Positions 8,136 to 19,695 of a stretch of 40,939 nucleotides of DNA are shown piece by piece. This stretch comes from Candidatus Omnitrophota bacterium (GTDB taxonomy: Bacteria; Omnitrophota; Gorgyraeia; Zapsychrales; Zapsychraceae): the NCBI GenBank assembly GCA_018812705.1, contig JAHJCZ010000063.1, positions 1 through 40,939 of the forward strand. The letters are read 5' to 3'. Within the stretch, counting starts at the first letter, position 1; each line of letters opens with the position of its first letter. The notes beneath the pieces were generated by a model. The model had not been told where the DNA came from. It saw only the letters and a list, made by a program, of their open reading frames with translations, and ran no database searches. A program made the position numbers and the translations under genes.

Positions 8136-9374
8136 GTGATGGCAGACAGCAAAAAGGTCAATAAAACATTGACCATAGGTCAGGCTCAAGAGTTAAAGAT
8201 CCTAAGGAAAATTGTAGATCTCACAAATACAGAATTAGATCTTAAAAAAATATTAAAAGAGACCGTAAAAGTTGTTTCTGAAATGACTAAGGCAGATTCT
8301 GTTTTTGTTTACCTTTTCGACGAAGCGAAAAAGAATCTGGTCCTGATGGCTTCTAAAACCTCTCATGCAAAAGAATTAGGCGAGGTTATTTTAAAAGTAG
8401 GTGAAGGTATTACGGGTTGGGTTGCTAAACAAAATAAACATGTTGTTATAAAGGAAGCTGCTTTTGAAGACCCCAGATTTAAAAGCTTTGATGTTCTTCC
8501 TGAAGATAAATATGAAGCATTTCTTTCGGTCCCTATAGTTTATAAGAACAAAGCAATTGGCGTAGTAAATGTCCAGCACAAAAAACCGCATGAATATGCT
8601 CAAAACACTACAGAATTGATCTCTGCGATAGCAAAGCAAATAGGTGGGGTTATTGAAAATGCTAGGCTTTATGAAGAGCAAAAGATCAAGGCTTTGCAGT
8701 TTGATAGCTTGGTGAAAGTAAGTAAGTCCATTACATCTCAGGATTATCTGGATGAGATCTTGAGCCTTATCGTTGTCGTTACTGCAGAGATGCTTAATTC
8801 TAAAATATGCTCGATAATGCTGTTAGATAAAAAAGCCAAGGAGCTGATCATTAAGGCGACGCAAAGCTTGAGTGAAGAGTATAAGAAAAAACCAAACATA
8901 AAAGTTAACGCAAGTATTAGTGGTGATGTTGTCACAAGCAAAAAACCAATAGCCATCTATGATGTTCGTAAAGAGAAGAAATATGCTTTTAGAGATATTG
9001 CAATAAAAGAAAAGCTGACATCAATGTTGGCTGTTCCAATGATCGTAAAAAATACAGCTATAGGCATTATCAATATTTATACAAAAATACCACATTCTTT
9101 TACTCAGGAAGAGATCGATGTTCTGCAGTTGGTTGCAAATCAGGCTGCAATAGCTATTGAAAATACTAAGCTGGTTGAAGAGGCTGTTAAAGCAAAAGAG
9201 GCTCTTGAGACAAGGAAGGTCATTGAGAGGGCTAAGGGCATACTGATGAAGATGGGTGGCTTAAACGAGCAAGAAGCTTATAAATTAATACATAAAAAGA
9301 GCATGGATTCATGTAAGCAAATGAAAGAGATAGCTGAATCCATTATTTTGATGGAAGAGTTGCAGCGACAATGA
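8136..9374 (+). CDS. GAF-GAF-ANTAR RNA-binding antiterminator (probable start 8136 GTG or 8139 ATG)
   Basis: Two GAF-type domains (SVPIVYKNKAIGVVNVQ; AVPMIVKNTAIGIINIYT) and C-terminal ANTAR signature ERAKGILMKMGGLNEQEAYKLIHKKSMDSCKQMKEIAESIILMEEL; no REC domain. Confidence 0.9.
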   Translation: MMADSKKVNKTLTIGQAQELKILRKIVDLTNTELDLKKILKETVKVVSEMTKADSVFVYLFDEAKKNLVLMASKTSHAKELGEVILKVGEGITGWVAKQNKHVVIKEAAFEDPRFKSFDVLPEDKYEAFLSVPIVYKNKAIGVVNVQHKKPHEYAQNTTELISAIAKQIGGVIENARLYEEQKIKALQFDSLVKVSKSITSQDYLDEILSLIVVVTAEMLNSKICSIMLLDKKAKELIIKATQSLSEEYKKKPNIKVNASISGDVVTSKKPIAIYDVRKEKKYAFRDIAIKEKLTSMLAVPMIVKNTAIGIINIYTKIPHSFTQEEIDVLQLVANQAAIAIENTKLVEEAVKAKEALETRKVIERAKGILMKMGGLNEQEAYKLIHKKSMDSCKQMKEIAESIILMEELQRQ

Positions 9375-10909
9375 AAACCTTTCTATTTGCAATAAAAGAT
9401 AATAAGTATCTTGTCCCATTAGTGCTTTTAGTTTTTAGTTTTTTTATTAGAATGAGCTTGATCAGTAAAGGGCCGTATAGTCTGGATTCTTTAGTAGTAG
9501 TAGATGCAGCGCTTAAAACAATACAAACCTACCAAATTCAATATTTTCACGATTTTCAATATCCGTTGGCTGTTATTTTCCTTGTAGGTTTTATTAACTT
9601 TTTTAAGTTATTCTCAGTTTATGATCCGGTATTTTTATATAATTTTTTAAGTGTGTTTTTTAGCTCAATGAGCGTTTCGTTGTTTTATGTTTTGATCAAG
9701 CAGTTAATAAATAAACCTGCAGCGTTTTTTACAGCTATTTTGTTTTCATTATGTCCAATTTATTTAGGGCTATCTGTTTATGGTACAAGCAATATATTAA
9801 GCTTGTTCTTTCTTTTTTTATGCCTTGTGAGCATGAATCAATATTTTTTGTCGCAAGAAAAAAAATATTATTTTTTAAGTTCTTTTAGCTTAGGGTTAAT
9901 GGGCGCAGCAAGGCTGCAAGAAATGTTTTTTATCTTGCCTGCTATTTTTTGTTTGTATGCTTTTTCTCCTTTGGAAAAGATTCGTCCGGACAGATCACAA
10001 AAAAAGTTGAGGACGAAGCTTTGTGGCTTTGCCGGATATCTTGTTATTGCTGTTTTAATAGGAGGGATATTTTATTTGCCAGCGATCTTAAGACAAATAA
10101 AATCTCCGGAAACGCCTTTTCTCATCGGGGTCTTGGTCACAAATGTTCCAAGAAGCGGTTTTATTAAGTTTTTTATAGGCTCAATTGTTCGGAATATAGG
10201 TTTTATAAAAATGTCCTTTTCTTTCTTGGGGCTTGTTCTGTCTGTTGTTGGGATAGCATTAATGGCATTTTCAAATAGAAGGGCTTTTGCTTTATGCTTT
10301 TCTTGGATACTCGCACCCCTGCTTATTTTGGCATGTTTCAGGATCACGGGACCTAGGCTTCTTGTCTTGATCGTTCCAGCTTTTTATGTAGGATTAGGGT
10401 ATGTTTTTTCGATCGTTTTGAAAAAGAACAAAACAATGCGCCTAGTTGTTTTTGTCGTATTTGTTGGGATTCTGTTCTCAAATTATTTTAAAATATACCC
10501 GATTTTATTACATAGGCATAATGCTGCTCTTTTGCCTGATTATGCACGGAAGATTGGCGAGATTTCTAAGCCAAACGATGTGATTATCTGTCATGATGAG
10601 GCTTTGTTTATACAGTATTATGCTAAAAGACAGACAAAATCGCGTCCCAGCGAGAGTGATCTTTTTAGCAGAGAAGCGATGATGAAATATAAAGATGAAG
10701 TTAGAGTACTGTTAGCTCAAGGCAGGTCTGTTTATTTAACTTGGCCAGGGATGTTTGCATCTGAGCACCCGCAAGTGTTTGAGCATTTAACAAAGAAATA
10801 TTTTAAAGTTGAGGAAGTGGGAATGATGCCGTATGAGGATTGGCATAGGGGGCCGAATAGACAGCAAATTTACAAATTTCCGATATATAGATTAAAGAAA
10901 AAAGAATAG
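9371..10909 (+). CDS. multi-pass membrane glycosyltransferase (GT39/ArnT-like)
   Basis: Overlaps preceding gene by ATGA; many TM helices; N-terminal GPYSLDSLVVVDAALKT and overall GT39/PMT_2-like layout. Confidence 0.65.
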   Translation: MKTFLFAIKDNKYLVPLVLLVFSFFIRMSLISKGPYSLDSLVVVDAALKTIQTYQIQYFHDFQYPLAVIFLVGFINFFKLFSVYDPVFLYNFLSVFFSSMSVSLFYVLIKQLINKPAAFFTAILFSLCPIYLGLSVYGTSNILSLFFLFLCLVSMNQYFLSQEKKYYFLSSFSLGLMGAARLQEMFFILPAIFCLYAFSPLEKIRPDRSQKKLRTKLCGFAGYLVIAVLIGGIFYLPAILRQIKSPETPFLIGVLVTNVPRSGFIKFFIGSIVRNIGFIKMSFSFLGLVLSVVGIALMAFSNRRAFALCFSWILAPLLILACFRITGPRLLVLIVPAFYVGLGYVFSIVLKKNKTMRLVVFVVFVGILFSNYFKIYPILLHRHNAALLPDYARKIGEISKPNDVIICHDEALFIQYYAKRQTKSRPSESDLFSREAMMKYKDEVRVLLAQGRSVYLTWPGMFASEHPQVFEHLTKKYFKVEEVGMMPYEDWHRGPNRQQIYKFPIYRLKKKE

Positions 10910-11039: not shown

Positions 11040-13223
11040 ATGGATAGATTTAAAAAATCTTTATATATTTTTCTTGGTGCTGCATTTTTTCTTCTATTGA
11101 CAGCGAATGCTTTTGCTTCTTCTCAAGGAAGCGAAGGAGGGATAGTAGAAAGAACCAGCTTGTTGGCAATTCAGCTAAGTGTAATATTGTTTGCCGCTTG
11201 GGTCGGTAACCTTGCGTTCGCAAGGATGAAATTACCTGCAGTTCTTGGAGAGATTATTGCTGGTGTTGTCATTGGCCCTTACTTTTTAGGGGCGTATGGC
11301 TTTACTGGTTTTGAACATGGCCTTTTCCCTTTATCCGGTGATTTTCCTGTTTCAATTGAATTATATAGCCTTGCAACGATTGCATCGATCATTTTGTTGT
11401 TCTTTGTTGGCCTTGAAACTGATATTGAGACTTTCTTGAGGTTTTCTTTTGCGGGGTCTATCGTTGGTGTTTGTGGTGTTATTGTCAGTTTTATTGCAGG
11501 CGACGTTTTAGGGGTTATGTTAGCTAAAAGCCTGATGGGCCAAAATTATGGGTTTACTCATCCGTTCTGTCTTTTTCTCGGTGTTTTATCTACTGCTACA
11601 TCAGTTGGAATCACTGCCCGAATTCTATCCGAAAAAAGAAAAATGAATTCTCCAGAAGGTGTTACTATTTTGGCTGCAGCTGTTATCGATGATGTTTTGG
11701 GTATTATTATTCTTGCAATCATTCTTGGTATGGTAAAAAGCGGTCATATAGGATGGAAAGAAGTCTCCTTAATATCTCTAAAAGCTTTTGGTATTTGGCT
11801 AGGTTTTACTTTAGTAGGCCTTAAATACGCGCTAAAGTTATCTACAGCTCTTAACAAAATTAATGACCGCAACACTATTGCTATATTAAGTTTTGGTTTA
11901 GCCTTATTATTGGCTGGCATATTTGAGCATTTTGGTTTAGCTATGATCATTGGTGCATATGTTATGGGCCTATCATTATCTAAAACGGATCTTGCTTTTA
12001 TAATTCAAGAGAAGCTGGAGATGTTGCAGAAATTTTTGGTTCCGATTTTTTTCTGTGTAATGGGGATGCTGGTCAACTTGCACGAGATGGCTTCATGGCA
12101 AATACTGGGTTTTGGAATGCTTTATGTTGTGTTGGCAACACTTGGGAAGGTGATAGGTTGTAGCCTCCCCGCATTATTTCTGAATTTTAATTTTAGGGGT
12201 GCTTTGCGGATCGGAGTTGGAATGGTTCCAAGGGGTGAAGTCGCTTTGATCATTGCAGGTATCGGACTTTCAACAGGCATCATTGATGATAAAGTTTTTA
12301 GTATTGTCATGATAATGACTTTTGTTACAACTTTGATCACTCCTTTAGTTCTAGACAAGATGCTTGATTCGAAAAAGCCTGTTCTAAGAAAAGAGCAGGA
12401 AACAAAAGATGAACAAAAGACGATCAAATACGATATGCCTAGTGTTGAAACTGCTGAATTGCTTCTAAACAAAGTTGTGACTGCTTTTGAGAATGAGGGA
12501 TTTTTTGTTCATAGGATGGGTCGAGAAGGAAGACTTTATAAGATAAGAAAAGAGAGCGTCTTTATTGTAATGCGATACAGCCCGCAAAGGATGGAATTTG
12601 ATTGTAGCGAGATGGATATGTCTTTTGTTCACACTTTGTTCTATGAGGTCATAGCTGAACTTGAGCACGCGATGCAGACATTGCAGACATTAACAGACAA
12701 AAGTTCTATTGGCAAAAAGATATTTGATACACAAAAAATTATTGCAAGTCTCAATAATGAAAGAAAAAAGAAATTTCAGATCGTCTCTTCCAATGCGCTT
12801 AGTGTTGATCTAAAAAGCAGAACAAAAGAAGCAATTCTTTCTGAACTGGTAGATCTTTTAATAGAATCAAAACAATTAGACGTATCAAAGAAGGAAGAAG
12901 TCATCGACGATCTTCTAAAAAGAGAGACAATGATGTCAACAGGAATGCAAAATGGTATTGCCCTGCCTCATGCTAAAACAACAGCTGTAGACCATGTTGT
13001 TGCAGCTGTAGGTATTAGCAAGGAAGGCATTGACTATGCCTCTCTAGATAAAATACCATCTAGGATATTTGTTTTGACTTTGGCTTCAAAAGAACATCCA
13101 CATGCTTATTTGCAATCTATGTCTGAAATTAGCAGGTTTTTATCAAAAGAAGATAATAGGGTTAAGATGATCGAATGTATTACAAAAATACAATTATTTG
13201 ATGTTTTAAACATACACATGTAA
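11040..13223 (+). CDS. CPA2-type cation:proton antiporter with C-terminal PTS EIIA (PtsN-like) domain
   Basis: LPAVLGEIIAGVVIGPYFLG, multi-TM; C-terminus KREETMMSTGMQNGIALPHAKT-like EIIA with active-site-like His region. Confidence 0.8.
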   Translation: MDRFKKSLYIFLGAAFFLLLTANAFASSQGSEGGIVERTSLLAIQLSVILFAAWVGNLAFARMKLPAVLGEIIAGVVIGPYFLGAYGFTGFEHGLFPLSGDFPVSIELYSLATIASIILLFFVGLETDIETFLRFSFAGSIVGVCGVIVSFIAGDVLGVMLAKSLMGQNYGFTHPFCLFLGVLSTATSVGITARILSEKRKMNSPEGVTILAAAVIDDVLGIIILAIILGMVKSGHIGWKEVSLISLKAFGIWLGFTLVGLKYALKLSTALNKINDRNTIAILSFGLALLLAGIFEHFGLAMIIGAYVMGLSLSKTDLAFIIQEKLEMLQKFLVPIFFCVMGMLVNLHEMASWQILGFGMLYVVLATLGKVIGCSLPALFLNFNFRGALRIGVGMVPRGEVALIIAGIGLSTGIIDDKVFSIVMIMTFVTTLITPLVLDKMLDSKKPVLRKEQETKDEQKTIKYDMPSVETAELLLNKVVTAFENEGFFVHRMGREGRLYKIRKESVFIVMRYSPQRMEFDCSEMDMSFVHTLFYEVIAELEHAMQTLQTLTDKSSIGKKIFDTQKIIASLNNERKKKFQIVSSNALSVDLKSRTKEAILSELVDLLIESKQLDVSKKEEVIDDLLKRETMMSTGMQNGIALPHAKTTAVDHVVAAVGISKEGIDYASLDKIPSRIFVLTLASKEHPHAYLQSMSEISRFLSKEDNRVKMIECITKIQLFDVLNIHM

Positions 13224-13241: not shown

Positions 13242-13270
13242 TTGACAAAGGTATTTTTTTGTTGTATAGT
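13242..13270 (+). promoter_or_regulatory. sigma70-like promoter for amtB leader
   Basis: TTGACA (13242-13247), 17-nt spacer, TATAGT (13265-13270). Confidence 0.75.
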
Positions 13271-13283
13271 TTTTTTATCTTAA

Positions 13284-13324
13284 GGGCGCAGTCGTCCTCT
13301 TGAATCGAAGAAGATTCAGGGGGA
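13284..13324 (+). promoter_or_regulatory. attenuator unit 1 of amtB leader: hexaloop hairpin GGGC-GCAGUC-GUCC (13284-13297) overlapping a terminator (13295-13324 + T tract)
   Basis: UCCUCUUGAAUC-GAAGAA-GAUUCAGGGGGA followed by TTTTTT; the hairpin 3' arm UCC is also the terminator 5' arm. Confidence 0.75.
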
Positions 13325-13400
13325 TTTTTTATTGCCTTGTCATTGATCTCTTTGGTTAATAGTTTTCCAGGGTAAGAGAAGGCTAAAATTATTGGGAATA

Positions 13401-13432
13401 TTTATCTTAAATTAATGATGATTTGAGATAAA
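13401..13432 (+). promoter_or_regulatory. ANTAR P1-type hairpin, loop AAUGAU (amtB unit 2)
   Basis: UUUAUCUUAAAUU-AAUGAU-GAUUUGAGAUAAA; 13 bp incl. G-U pairs; loop A1 and G4. Confidence 0.75.
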
Positions 13433-13441
13433 CTAAATAGC

Positions 13442-13455
13442 GGACATTGATGTCC
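13442..13455 (+). promoter_or_regulatory. ANTAR P2-type hairpin, loop AUUGAU (amtB unit 2)
   Basis: GGAC-AUUGAU-GUCC; loop A1 and G4; 3' arm shared with terminator. Confidence 0.8.
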
Positions 13456-13491
13456 TCTTTTAAGCATTGTTGCTTGAAAGGGGATTTTTTT
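13453..13491 (+). terminator. intrinsic terminator/attenuator T2
   Basis: UCCUCUUUUAAGC-AUUGUU-GCUUGAAAGGGGA then TTTTTTT. Confidence 0.9.
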
Positions 13492-13493
13492 AT

Positions 13494-13507
13494 GGACAAA
13501 GTTGTCC
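13494..13507 (+). promoter_or_regulatory. ANTAR P2-type hairpin, loop AAAGUU (amtB unit 3)
   Basis: GGAC-AAAGUU-GUCC; loop A1 and G4; 3' arm shared with terminator. Confidence 0.8.
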
Positions 13508-13550
13508 TCTTTGGAACAGTTGTTGAACAATTGTTTTAAAGAGGACTTTT
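13504..13550 (+). terminator. intrinsic terminator/attenuator T3
   Basis: GUCCUCUUUGGAACAGUUGU-UGA-ACAAUUGUUUUAAAGAGGAC: long continuous hairpin incl. G-U pairs, then TTTT. Confidence 0.9.
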
Positions 13551-13598
13551 CTATAAAGGGAAGTTAATTCAACATTAAACAATTAAAAAGGAGGGGAT

Positions 13599-14942
13599 AT
13601 GTTTAAAGAAGTATTAACAAATAGGGTAGCATGCTTTTTTTTGTTGTTGCTTGCTGCAGGAATGACGCTGCTCTTGTCTTCTACGGCAAGTGCTGCAACG
13701 GCAGATGAAGCAATGTTCACAGCAAACAATACCTGGATGCTGGTTGCAACGATACTGGTTTTCATTATGCATCTTGGTTTTGCGACACTTGAAGCTGGAT
13801 TGACAAGATCAAAAAATACGGTCAATATTATCTTTAAGAATATTTCGATCGTTGCTATCGGGCTTTTAACATACGCGATAGTTGGCTTCAATTTAATGTA
13901 TCCAGGGGACGCTTGGATATTAGGGAAGTTCCTTGGTTTTTCAGGCTTTGGTATTGCTGCGCCTGAAGGAGCTGCCGGGTTAATAGATTATGCAGGCGGG
14001 GCATATACATACTGGACTGATTTTATTTTTCAGGCAATGTTCGCAGCGACGGCAGCTACAATTGTATCAGGTGCTGTTGCCGAAAGAATAAAATTGCATA
14101 GCTTTTTGCTGTTTTCAGTAATATTTGTGGGAATAGTTTACCCCTTTGTTGGAAGTTGGAAATGGGGAGGGGGCTGGTTAGATGCAATGAATTTTTATGA
14201 TTTTGCCGGGTCTACTTTAGTTCATTCTGTTGGTGGCTGGGGTGCTTTGGCAGGTGTTATTGTTTTAGGGCCAAGAATTGGTAAATATACAAATGGTGCA
14301 GTCAAAGCAATTCCTGGGCATAGTTTGCCGTTAGCGGCAATAGGTGTGTTTTTATTATGGTTTGGTTGGTTTGGTTTTAACGGAGGATCTGTTCTTTCTG
14401 CTGACCCCGGAGCTGTTTCTCTAGTATTTGTCACAACTACTTTAGCCGCAGCGGCAGGAATTATTACATCAATGGTCACTTCTGAAATAATTCAGAAAAA
14501 ACCTGACCTTTCTATGGTATTGAATGGTGCTTTGGCAGGTCTTGTAGGTATTACGGCAGGAGCTGATATGGTATCTGTTATGGATTCAATTATTATCGGA
14601 GGGGTTGCAGGTTTTTTGGTCGTTGTTGCCGTAATATTCTTTGACTCAAAAATAAAACTGGATGATCCTGTTGGAGCCTTATCAGTTCATTTGGTTTGTG
14701 GAATTTGGGGGACGCTGGCTGTGGGAATATTTAGTTCAAATCCAGACCATTCTTTTATAACTCAGCTGATAGGCGTCATAGCATATGCTTTAATATGTTT
14801 TCCAGCAGCTTTTTTGATATTTTCAGCAATAAAAGCAACTATGGGTATTAGGGTAACAGAAGAAGAAGAAAACAGAGGCCTTGATATTTGTGAACATGGC
14901 ATGGAGGCTTATGGTGGTTTTCAGGTTTTTAGTAATCAATAA
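13599..14942 (+). CDS. amtB: ammonium transporter
   Basis: Signal peptide; Amt core (LEAGLTRSKNTVNI, DFAGSTLVHSVGGWGALAG, WFGWFGFNGGS); C-terminal EENRGLDICEHGMEAYGGF. Confidence 0.97.
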   Translation: MFKEVLTNRVACFFLLLLAAGMTLLLSSTASAATADEAMFTANNTWMLVATILVFIMHLGFATLEAGLTRSKNTVNIIFKNISIVAIGLLTYAIVGFNLMYPGDAWILGKFLGFSGFGIAAPEGAAGLIDYAGGAYTYWTDFIFQAMFAATAATIVSGAVAERIKLHSFLLFSVIFVGIVYPFVGSWKWGGGWLDAMNFYDFAGSTLVHSVGGWGALAGVIVLGPRIGKYTNGAVKAIPGHSLPLAAIGVFLLWFGWFGFNGGSVLSADPGAVSLVFVTTTLAAAAGIITSMVTSEIIQKKPDLSMVLNGALAGLVGITAGADMVSVMDSIIIGGVAGFLVVVAVIFFDSKIKLDDPVGALSVHLVCGIWGTLAVGIFSSNPDHSFITQLIGVIAYALICFPAAFLIFSAIKATMGIRVTEEEENRGLDICEHGMEAYGGFQVFSNQ

Positions 14943-14973: not shown

Positions 14974-15315
14974 ATGAAAATGATCATAGCAATGATACAA
15001 CCTCATAAGCTGCCTGATGTAAAAAAAGCTTTGTTTGATGCAGAGATACATAAAATGACGGTTACTAATGTTTTAGGCTGCGGTCAGCAAAGGGGTTTCA
15101 GTGAGACTTATAGAGGGGTAGTGCATGAAGTTAATCTGTTAAAAAAAGTTCGCCTTGAAATCGCTGTAAATGAGAAGTTTGTTGACGATACAATAAAGGC
15201 AATTATTCAAGGTGCTAAGACGGGCAATATCGGAGATGGAAAGATCTTTGTTCTGGATCTGCAGAGATGTATAAGAATAAGGACAGAAGATGAAGGGCAC
15301 GAAGCAATAGGCTAG
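14974..15315 (+). CDS. glnK: PII nitrogen regulatory protein
   Basis: 112-113 aa PII fold sequence; YRGVV T-loop; [12 protein letters not shown]-loop; directly after amtB. Confidence 0.95.
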
Positions 15316-15328
15316 TATTTTTTAAGGC

Positions 15329-15356
15329 TTGACAAATTTGAGCTTGATGTTATATT
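15329..15356 (+). promoter_or_regulatory. sigma70-like promoter for glnN leader
   Basis: TTGACA (15329-15334), 16-nt spacer, TATATT (15351-15356). Confidence 0.65.
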
Positions 15357-15370
15357 TGTTGCAAAATTAA

Positions 15371-15423
15371 GGGCAATGAAGTCCTCCATATAAACATCAA
15401 TAATGTTTTTGTGGAGGATTTTT
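15371..15423 (+). promoter_or_regulatory. attenuator unit 1 of glnN leader: hairpin GGGC-AAUGAA-GUCC (15371-15384) overlapping terminator (15382-15423)
   Basis: UCCUCCAU...AUGGAGGA-type hairpin (UCCUCCAUAUAAACAU/AUGUUUUUGUGGAGGA) followed by TTTTT; loop A1 and G4. Confidence 0.85.
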
Positions 15424-15424
15424 A

Positions 15425-15446
15425 TTGAAGACAACGATGTCTTCAA
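15425..15446 (+). promoter_or_regulatory. ANTAR P1-type hairpin, loop AACGAU (glnN unit 2)
   Basis: UUGAAGAC-AACGAU-GUCUUCAA, perfect 8-bp stem; no terminator of its own. Confidence 0.85.
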
Positions 15447-15472
15447 AACTTTCTGATCAAAGTAGAATAGTC

Positions 15473-15486
15473 GGACAACGAAGTCC
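15473..15486 (+). promoter_or_regulatory. ANTAR P2-type hairpin, loop AACGAA (glnN unit 2)
   Basis: GGAC-AACGAA-GUCC; 3' arm shared with terminator. Confidence 0.85.
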
Positions 15487-15530
15487 TCTAAGCGGAAAAA
15501 TTGTATTTTCCTTCGCTTGAGGGCTTTTTT
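15483..15530 (+). terminator. intrinsic terminator/attenuator upstream of glnN
   Basis: GUCCUC(U)AAGCGGAAAA...UUUUCCuuCGCUUGAGGGC then TTTTTT. Confidence 0.85.
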
Positions 15531-15653
15531 ATTGTGTGGACAGCTAGGATCTTTAGAATATGCCTAGAGATATTAACAGCATTATTATGTTATAAAAAAA
15601 TAAGAATTGTGATATAACTCTAAGTATGAAATTAAGAAAGGGAGGCAAAAAAA

Positions 15654-17735
15654 ATGGATGAATTTAAAGCAATACCGGACTATTACGGCGAAAACGTTTT
15701 TAGTTTAAAAACTATGAGGAATTATTTATCTGACCAAGCATATAAGTCTTTAAGCGCAACTATTAGAGTAGGCGGAACATTGGAGCCAAAGATCGCAGAT
15801 GAAGTAGCAGATGCGATGAAGAATTGGGCACTTTCAAAAGGAGCAACTCACTTTACTCATTGGTTTCAGCCTTTGACAGGCTCAACAGCAGAAAAACATG
15901 ATGCTTTTATTACTCCTGATAATGAAGGTGGAGTGATCATAAAATTTTCAGGGAAGGAGCTTATTCAAGGTGAGCCTGACGCATCAAGTTTTCCTTCAGG
16001 TGGTTTAAGGCCGACTTTTGAGGCTCGTGGATATACTGGATGGGATCCAACATCGCCAGCTTTTATTAAAGAAGGACCGGAATCAGCTACTCTTTGTATT
16101 CCAACATATTTTATTGGATGGAAAGGTGAAGCCTTAGACAAGAAAACGCCTCTTTTACGTTCAATGAAAGCTCTTTCAAAACAAGTTTGTCGATTAGGCG
16201 AGATCTTTGGGATCAAATCAAAAGGAAAAACGGCATATGCAACTTTGGGTGGAGAGCAAGAATACTTTTTGATCGATAGAGAGTTTTATTATTCAAGAAT
16301 TGATCTTATGCAGACAGGAAGAACACTGTTCGGCAAAGAACCTGCAAAGCATCAGCAAATGGCAGATCATTATTTTGGAGCAATTAAAAGCCGTGTTATG
16401 GGTTTTATGGAAGATCTCGACAAAGAAATGTGGAGATTAGGTGTTCCTGCTAAGACAAGGCATAATGAGGTTTCGCCTGCTCAGTTTGAACTTGCGCCTG
16501 TTTTTGAACAGCTTAATTTAGCTGTTGACCACAATATGCTCCTTATGGAGGTTATGCAAAAAATTGCAGAAAGACATGATCTTGTATGTCTTCTTCATGA
16601 GAAACCTTTTGCAGGAGTTAATGGTTCGGGAAAACATAATAATTGGTCAATAGTAGGTCCTGACGATAAAAATTGGCTTTCACCAGGAGACAATCCGCAT
16701 GATAATGCTAAGTTCTTAGTGGTTCTTTGTTCGATCATTAAGGCAGTTGATACATATGCAGATCTATTGAGGGCTTCAATTGCATCAGCTGGCAATGATC
16801 ATAGGCTTGGTTCTCATGAAGCCCCACCAGCTATTGTTTCAATTTTCTTAGGCGAGCAGCTTACAGATATTATTGAACAAATTGAAAAAGGTGGAGCAAA
16901 GACTTCAAAAAAAGGCGGGGTCCTTCAGATAGGGGTTGATTCTCTTCCCGACTTACCTCGCGATGCAACTGATCGTAACAGAACATCACCATTTGCTTTT
17001 ACTGGCGCTAAATTTGAGTTTAGAGCAGTTGGCTCAAATGCTAATTTAGCAGGACCAAACATTGTTCTAAACACTATTGTTGCAGAAGCTTTAGATGAAA
17101 TTTGTGACAAGCTTGAAGGTGTTAGTAAAAAAGAACTAAATTCTGCAATTCAAAAACAATTGCAAAGTATCGTTACAAAACACAAGAGAATTCTCTTTAA
17201 TGGAGATAATTATACAGAAGAGTGGGTAAAAGAGGCAAAGAAAAGAGGTTTGCCAAATCTTAAGACGACCCCAGAAGCTTTAGAGGCGTTTAAGAACCCT
17301 GCTAATGAAAAAGTTTTAGCAAAATATGGCGTATTGTCTAAAACAGAGCTAGCTTCTAGGTATGAAGTATATAAGGAAATGTATGAATCAGTTATTGACT
17401 ATGAAGCAAAGCTATCTCTTGATATGGCAAAAACTATGATCGTTCCGGCTGTTTTTAGCTACCAAGAAGAATTGGCAGACAGTATTAAATCAGTTGAGGA
17501 GATCAATAAAACAAAATCAACTGGGTCAAGAAAACTCTTGAAAGAGATCACTGGTGAACTTGAAGGAGCATTAGTTAAGATTGACACGCTTGGTGCTGCA
17601 ATTAAGAAAGGCAAGGCCTTAAAAACTAAGGAAGCGATGACTGATCTTAGGGCGTCAATTGATGCTCTGGAAGGATTAGTTGCTGAGGATGTTTGGCCAT
17701 TAGCTTCTTATGCAGAAATGTTGTTTATGCTTTAA
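15654..17735 (+). CDS. glnN: type III glutamine synthetase
   Basis: ~693 aa; GGLRPTFEARGYTGWDPTSPAFI, NEVSPAQFELAPVFE, EKPFAGVNGSGKHNNWS. Confidence 0.95.
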   Translation: MDEFKAIPDYYGENVFSLKTMRNYLSDQAYKSLSATIRVGGTLEPKIADEVADAMKNWALSKGATHFTHWFQPLTGSTAEKHDAFITPDNEGGVIIKFSGKELIQGEPDASSFPSGGLRPTFEARGYTGWDPTSPAFIKEGPESATLCIPTYFIGWKGEALDKKTPLLRSMKALSKQVCRLGEIFGIKSKGKTAYATLGGEQEYFLIDREFYYSRIDLMQTGRTLFGKEPAKHQQMADHYFGAIKSRVMGFMEDLDKEMWRLGVPAKTRHNEVSPAQFELAPVFEQLNLAVDHNMLLMEVMQKIAERHDLVCLLHEKPFAGVNGSGKHNNWSIVGPDDKNWLSPGDNPHDNAKFLVVLCSIIKAVDTYADLLRASIASAGNDHRLGSHEAPPAIVSIFLGEQLTDIIEQIEKGGAKTSKKGGVLQIGVDSLPDLPRDATDRNRTSPFAFTGAKFEFRAVGSNANLAGPNIVLNTIVAEALDEICDKLEGVSKKELNSAIQKQLQSIVTKHKRILFNGDNYTEEWVKEAKKRGLPNLKTTPEALEAFKNPANEKVLAKYGVLSKTELASRYEVYKEMYESVIDYEAKLSLDMAKTMIVPAVFSYQEELADSIKSVEEINKTKSTGSRKLLKEITGELEGALVKIDTLGAAIKKGKALKTKEAMTDLRASIDALEGLVAEDVWPLASYAEMLFML

Positions 17736-19591: not shown

Positions 19592-19599
19592 GATTTTAT

Positions 19600-19619
19600 T
19601 CAAAGCAATGGCGTTTTGA
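19600..19619 (+). promoter_or_regulatory. ANTAR P1-type hairpin, loop AAUGGC (orf169-gdhA leader)
   Basis: UCAAAGC-AAUGGC-GUUUUGA; loop A1 and G4. Confidence 0.7.
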
Positions 19620-19623
19620 GTAG

Positions 19624-19659
19624 ATCTCGAGGTTGAGATTCTTGTAGGAGCTATGTCCT
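19624..19659 (+). promoter_or_regulatory. candidate degenerate P2 region: AUCUC-GAGGUU-GAGAU (19624-19639) and AGGA-GCUAUG-UCCU (19646-19659)
   Basis: Two small hexaloop hairpins; first has G4 but not A1, second lacks both but overlaps the terminator 5' arm. Confidence 0.4.
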
Positions 19660-19695
19660 TAAAGAACCAGGAGGTTTTTTTAGGGCATTTTTTTT
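19653..19695 (+). terminator. intrinsic terminator/attenuator upstream of orf169
   Basis: AUGUCCUUAAAGAACC-AGGA-GGUUUUUUUAGGGCAU followed by T tract. Confidence 0.85.

Follow-up and report, generated by a model that had tools for sequence, protein, structure and literature searches.

Three serial terminator gates, probably ANTAR controlled, in the amtB-glnK leader of an Omnitrophota bacterium

A nitrogen locus with gated leaders

The stretch of DNA analyzed here (the window, 40,939 nucleotides) is a whole contig of a 2.69 Mb Candidatus Omnitrophota genome, and its genes encode, in order, a P-loop/DRTGG protein, a GAF-GAF-ANTAR protein, a PMT-like protein, a Na/H antiporter with an EIIA domain, AmtB, GlnK, GlnN, and NAD synthase. 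The antiporter gene (positions 11040 to 13223; its product carries a C-terminal PTS EIIA-2 domain) lies directly 5' of the leader of the ammonium transporter gene amtB (13599 to 14942; Pfam PF00909, E = 1.1e-116), which is followed by glnK for a P-II protein (14974 to 15315; Pfam PF00543) and by glnN for a type III glutamine synthetase (15654 to 17735; Pfam GSIII_N, E = 6e-76). The genes that stand behind gates, amtB-glnK and glnN, belong to nitrogen metabolism, and they, the regulator gene, and all promoters, hairpins, and gates given below lie on the forward strand.

The GAF-GAF-ANTAR gene (8136 to 9374), whose product is the presumed trans-acting antiterminator, is located about 4 kb upstream of the amtB leader. 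Its ANTAR domain (residues 353 to 404; Pfam E = 1.4e-20) is the single one in the whole 2.69 Mb genome (one match, E = 3.9e-21). In an alignment with EutV, the residues that hold G4 (R142, K149, E160, and Y164) and the plug residue M172 are identical, while R168, N173, R175, and R177 differ. The nearest PDB match of the first GAF domain is 3ci6, the GAF domain of a phosphoenolpyruvate-protein phosphotransferase, which we take to be PtsP-like; the same domain also matches a transcriptional regulator named nlh1, presumably NifA-like, and nitrogen status as the signal for this protein is a guess.

A sigma-70-like promoter (13242 to 13270; TTGACA-17 nt-TATAGT, 11 of 12 matches), which is kept in a sister species, places the predicted amtB transcription start at about 13277. 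Gate 1 begins some 6 nt later with the antiterminator hairpin P2.1 (13284 to 13297; GGGC[GCAGUC]GUCC, loop 13288 to 13293), leaving no space for a canonical P1, and its terminator T1 (13294 to 13331) consists of a stem at 13294 to 13325 and a tract of six T residues (-18.8 kcal/mol), with an apex hexaloop, GAAGAA (13307 to 13312), 13 nt past the P2.1 loop. Gate 2 is preceded by a free hairpin, P1.2 (13401 to 13432; loop AAUGAU at 13414 to 13419), its predicted recruitment hairpin, whose loop lies 26 nt before that of P2.2 (13442 to 13455; GGAC[AUUGAU]GUCC). Terminator T2 (13452 to 13492; stem 13452 to 13485 plus seven T residues, -20.5 kcal/mol) has the apex hexaloop AUUGUU (13466 to 13471), 14 nt after the P2.2 loop. 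Gate 3 comprises P2.3 (13494 to 13507; GGAC[AAAGUU]GUCC) and T3 (13504 to 13552), in which a stem at 13504 to 13546 is followed by the U-rich tail TTTTCT (-25.6 kcal/mol). The T2 apex could act as the P1 of gate 3, because it lies 26 nt before the P2.3 loop; it is the sole candidate there, the candidate for gate 2 is the free hairpin, and none is possible for gate 1. In gates 2 and 3 a linker of about 10 nt separates the candidate P1 from P2, and the range in the eut leaders is 5 to 12 nt.

In all three gates the 5' arm of the terminator (GUCC) doubles as the 3' arm of the GGRC hexaloop hairpin. Folding indicates that forcing the P2 state costs just 2.7 to 3.4 kcal/mol, with the terminator stem losing its basal pairs, and in the P2-closed fold the upper stem and apex loop of the terminator persist beside P2. 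The leader as a whole folds with z = -6.8, and T1, T2, and T3 are the top three terminator-like sites in 10 kb. The first-pass annotation of this DNA had placed three T-tract terminators between the promoter and amtB, each overlapped on its 5' arm by a GGRC-hexaloop-GUCC hairpin, and both statements hold. The P2 loops of gates 2 and 3 begin with the classical A and that of gate 1 with G; G4 is present in all three.

The glnN leader (15329 to 15653) is likewise predicted to hold two ANTAR gates in series behind its own promoter (15329 to 15356). The first (15371 to 15424; P2 loop AAUGAA, terminator 15381 to 15419, E = 2.3e-9) is start proximal and lacks a P1, as in the amtB leader; a free hexaloop hairpin (15425 to 15446; AACGAU) is the likely P1 of the second (15473 to 15532; P2 loop AACGAA, terminator 15483 to 15524, E = 1.6e-5). 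This double gate, P1.2, the apex hexaloops of T1 and T2, and the ANTAR gene in the window go beyond what the first-pass annotation had described.

Rarity, conservation, and co-occurrence with ANTAR domains

Our detector looks for a hexaloop hairpin with a purine at position 1 and G at position 4 (R1/G4) that overlaps a terminator. It finds three matches in the amtB leader, two in the glnN leader, and one doubtful match, and 100 dinucleotide shuffles of the window gave a mean of 0.15 matches and none at the strict setting. Of 2,000 shuffled leaders, all but one (1,999) were without a match, and that one had a single match. The doubtful match (19599 to 19686) was dropped as a gate; it spans 74 nt, has an A+T-rich stem, and is missed by covariance model R1, which was trained on 44 gates taken from the window and from relatives, contains no P1, and was used for the genome-wide scans. 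In the 2.69 Mb genome this model recovers the five window gates alone at E of 1.6e-5 or below (next best, 0.065); the window gates belong to its training set and their scores are not independent, so that the informative part is that nothing else appears in 2.7 Mb. In 16 assorted genomes from other phyla the model found nothing below E = 0.0128, and in Firmicutes it retrieves leaders of the published type with P1 and P2, one gate each.

The sister species (G001), whose AmtB is 90% identical, retains all three amtB gates but lacks about 60 nt of the 116 nt that separate T1 from P2.2, and P1.2 is not cleanly conserved in it. Across the five loops compared (three P2 loops and two apices), G4 is constant, and 9 of the 25 other positions have changed. 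The upper stem of T2 reads UCGGGC in place of UUAAGC, and pairing with GCUUGA survives the AA-to-GG and T-to-C changes throughout. More widely, covariation is seen in the terminator stems, where 9 of 11 pairs are altered on both sides; within P2 it is uninformative, since GGRC/GYCC hardly varies. Another ANTAR protein, the second of the sister species, is encoded at C24:15421-15576; close to it are gates (14306 and 15681), and additional amtB-like genes lie at 10201 and 16667.

These changes also bear on the idea that the leader is no ANTAR element, being instead an attenuator that works through a leader peptide or an RNA switch of another kind. A 30-codon open frame (13450 to 13539) does start within P2.2, and the sister species also keeps it open, yet its changes are mostly nonsynonymous and pair preserving and its Shine-Dalgarno sequence is weak, so that it is probably not coding; moreover, a frame of this kind could not lie ahead of gate 1. 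As for another switch, an Rfam search of the window returned just one tRNA above the gathering score, and the amtB leader had no riboswitch or leader match at that score, with weak unrelated matches below the cutoff. Together with the co-occurrence of gates and ANTAR domains described next, this makes a non-ANTAR element very improbable.

Gates were found in 56 of the 59 genomes of the order that we surveyed and an ANTAR domain in 54. Every one of the 54 ANTAR-bearing genomes carries gates, and each of the three gateless genomes lacks an ANTAR domain (Fisher P of about 3e-4). In the remaining two, G002 and G003, gates are present and an ANTAR domain was undetected, reflecting either gaps in these metagenome-assembled genomes or another regulator. 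In several genomes (e.g., G038, G047, and G055), a gate lies no more than about 300 nt from the end of the ANTAR gene. A loop-agnostic scan of 157 loops across the order gave G4 in 97%, A1 in 75%, and G1 in 22%, the gates scanned having been collected with a model whose training loops were R1/G4. The DNA itself shows the gates, how conserved and how rare they are, the one regulator, and the chain of loops. Because of the gates themselves, their conservation in the sister species, and their co-occurrence with ANTAR domains, we consider that the amtB-glnK leader very probably consists of three serial ANTAR-controlled transcription attenuators.

The number of gates is less exceptional than had been supposed. 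Among 122 leaders, a loop-agnostic detector counted a single gate in 71, two gates in 32, three in 6, and four in 1; the other 12 had no gate by the detector's own criteria, and one two-gate stretch overlaps the four-gate stretch. At least two gates are thus present in 39 of the 122 leaders and at least three in 7; serial gates are ordinary in the order, and three is at the upper end. The suggestion in the first-pass annotation that triple gating is unusual is therefore not upheld within the order, and the comparison of gate number among homologous leaders that it had called for showed the amtB gates to be kept in the sister species, but multigate leaders to be common. There is also a precedent in Ramesh 2012, where 6 transcription units of Desulfotomaculum acetoxidans are credited with 13 attenuators, so that multiple gates per unit had already been observed there.

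Start-proximal gates and terminator apices

Gate 1 of the amtB leader and gate 1 of the glnN leader belong to a recurrent type. In 27 leaders, the predicted start (start sites are predictions throughout) lies at most 15 nt from P2, at exactly 6 nt in 14 of them, and near-perfect TTGACA/TATANT boxes fill the space that a P1 would occupy; none of the 27 has an R1/G4 hexaloop 22 to 57 nt upstream of the P2 loop. Another 64 leaders have a start more than 35 nt before P2, and 24 of these carry an upstream R1/G4 hexaloop (stem of at least 5 pairs). EutV is known to require P1 in vivo. One start-proximal leader (L220) has a single gate before what appears, from its translated start, to be the gene for the small subunit of carbamoyl-phosphate synthase, and the regulon may therefore exceed ammonium uptake and glutamine synthetase.

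The absence of a P1 from gate 1, together with the G that begins its P2 loop, might be taken to mean that only gates 2 and 3 are under ANTAR control and that T1 is a constitutive partial terminator or insulator, all the more so as T1 would also halt transcripts from the upstream antiporter gene, between whose stop codon and the amtB promoter no terminator-like site was found. This is unlikely in our view: P2.1 keeps its G4 in the sister species, and the start-proximal gate recurs in the 27 leaders, spanning all seven families of the order, several of them with this single gate and no other control element found.

Where a P1-less gate might find its second loop is suggested by the terminator apices. 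An R1/G4 apex hexaloop occurs in 37 of 147 gates versus 13 of 277 ordinary terminators found at those loci (P = 1.8e-9, an optimistic value given that the genomes are related) and in 14 of the 27 start-proximal gates versus 9 of the 64 far from the start (P = 0.0004). The apex mostly lies 13 to 15 nt after the P2 loop, most commonly 13, and the P1-P2 loop distance in Firmicutes is 13 to 14 nt. Where a next gate is close, the apex lies 24 to 29 nt before its P2 loop, at the general peak of upstream R1/G4 hairpins, and all 10 hexaloop apices at most 36 nt before a next P2 loop are R1/G4 (background, 13.9%; P = 2.7e-9). Such an apex is absent in 13 of the 27 start-proximal gates and in 5 of 15 closely spaced gate pairs.

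Two readings divide these observations between them, both within ANTAR control. Apex hexaloops might be recruitment hairpins for the next gate only, a relay that the spacing and the 10 uniform apices would favor, but 11 of 14 apices with a distant next gate are R1/G4 as well, so that confinement to close neighbors is not upheld (Fisher P = 0.12), and 5 of 15 start-proximal gates without a close next gate have an R1/G4 apex; we regard the relay as conceivable without expecting it. Alternatively, the apex could be the second loop of its own gate, with the antiterminator first and its partner nested in the terminator. Both the enrichment in P1-less gates and the 13-nt distance, like that of P1 and P2 in Firmicutes, speak for this, and yet the enrichment is partly confounded with the presence of a next gate (9 of 12 with one, 5 of 15 without), so that service to the own gate alone is not cleanly upheld, and 13 of the 27 lack the loop altogether; we would likewise give this reading rather less than even weight.

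What we tentatively propose, short of thinking it probable, combines the two: the P1-less ANTAR attenuators of the order may have their antiterminator at the 5' end and the terminator apex as its partner loop, and in serial leaders the apex may also recruit the dimer for the next gate, one dimer being handed along the RNA. New here, as statistical and anatomical claims, are a first gate that lacks P1 and terminator apices of the ANTAR type; in the open-licence literature, our searches turned up no account of serial ANTAR gates preceding one gene, of attenuators without a P1, or of terminator-apex hexaloops.

Proposed mechanism and known systems

The mechanism of ANTAR antitermination has been described (PMC3369931, PMC3369936, PMC8934654). 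By analogy we infer how binding, the direction of the response, the signal, and hand-over might work at this locus. With the regulator inactive, polymerase would meet three default terminators, and leakage would be multiplied down the series. With the regulator active, presumably in nitrogen-poor cells, it would bind the R1/G4 hexaloops and keep each GGRC/GUCC hairpin closed; the closed hairpin would remove four G-C-rich basal pairs from the terminator and part the remaining stem from the U tract, so that polymerase could pass. The hexaloops form a chain (P2.1, apex of T1, then P1.2, P2.2, apex of T2, P2.3) along which an ANTAR dimer could pass, each terminator apex serving as the second loop of its own gate, as the P1 recruitment loop of the next, or as both; these roles are perhaps somewhat less than evenly likely. 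The glnN gene would be controlled likewise by its two gates.

A low basal level and a steep response had been anticipated for such a leader, and calculation supports the first as the main effect and the second as a minor one. Three independent gates with 10% leak each would give a basal level of 0.1%, while the 10-to-90% input range would narrow from 81-fold for one gate to about 37-fold for three with leak, or about 32-fold without, and the midpoint would shift up 3- to 4-fold. A natural triple-tandem riboswitch shows such behavior (PMC4759541). In the calculation the steepening stays minor unless hand-over correlates passage; if a dimer were handed along, leakage in the OFF state would be multiplied and passage in the ON state correlated.

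An open question is why ANTAR antitermination should need two loops although the dimer grips only one of them at any moment (Walshe 2022, PMC8934654). Start-proximal gates that have one upstream loop, and serial gates whose loops are shared with terminators, are natural test objects for separating recruitment from antitermination, and they raise the further question of whether the regulator can pass between successive loops in the wake of the moving polymerase. Our findings extend the documented architecture of ANTAR leaders to an uncultured phylum, and serial gates may offer compact parts for low-leak synthetic control.

Among known systems, the triple-tandem c-di-GMP-I riboswitch of Bacillus thuringiensis also places three complete terminator switches in series, with a measured lower basal level and more digital output, but it uses small-molecule aptamers, no protein, and no shared elements. 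The EutV/EutW-controlled eut leaders of Enterococcus faecalis share with the amtB leader an R1/G4 hexaloop hairpin at the 5' arm of the terminator, an ANTAR protein, a nitrogen theme, and one regulator for several terminators. In contrast to the serial amtB gates before one gene, however, the eut terminators occur singly, in separate leaders distributed over the operon, and every one has a P1 and a P2 of its own; amtB gate 1 lacks a P1, the amtB terminator apices are R1/G4 hexaloops, and the eut regulator has a receiver domain where the Omnitrophota regulator has GAF domains instead. The NasR-nasF and AmiR-amiE leaders similarly combine a default terminator, a hexaloop antiterminator, and nitrogen metabolism, but have one terminator per leader and a P1. 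The ANTAR regulon of D. acetoxidans (Ramesh 2012) resembles the present one in having more than one attenuator per unit and in its nitrogen genes, with ammonium transporters among the matches of that survey.
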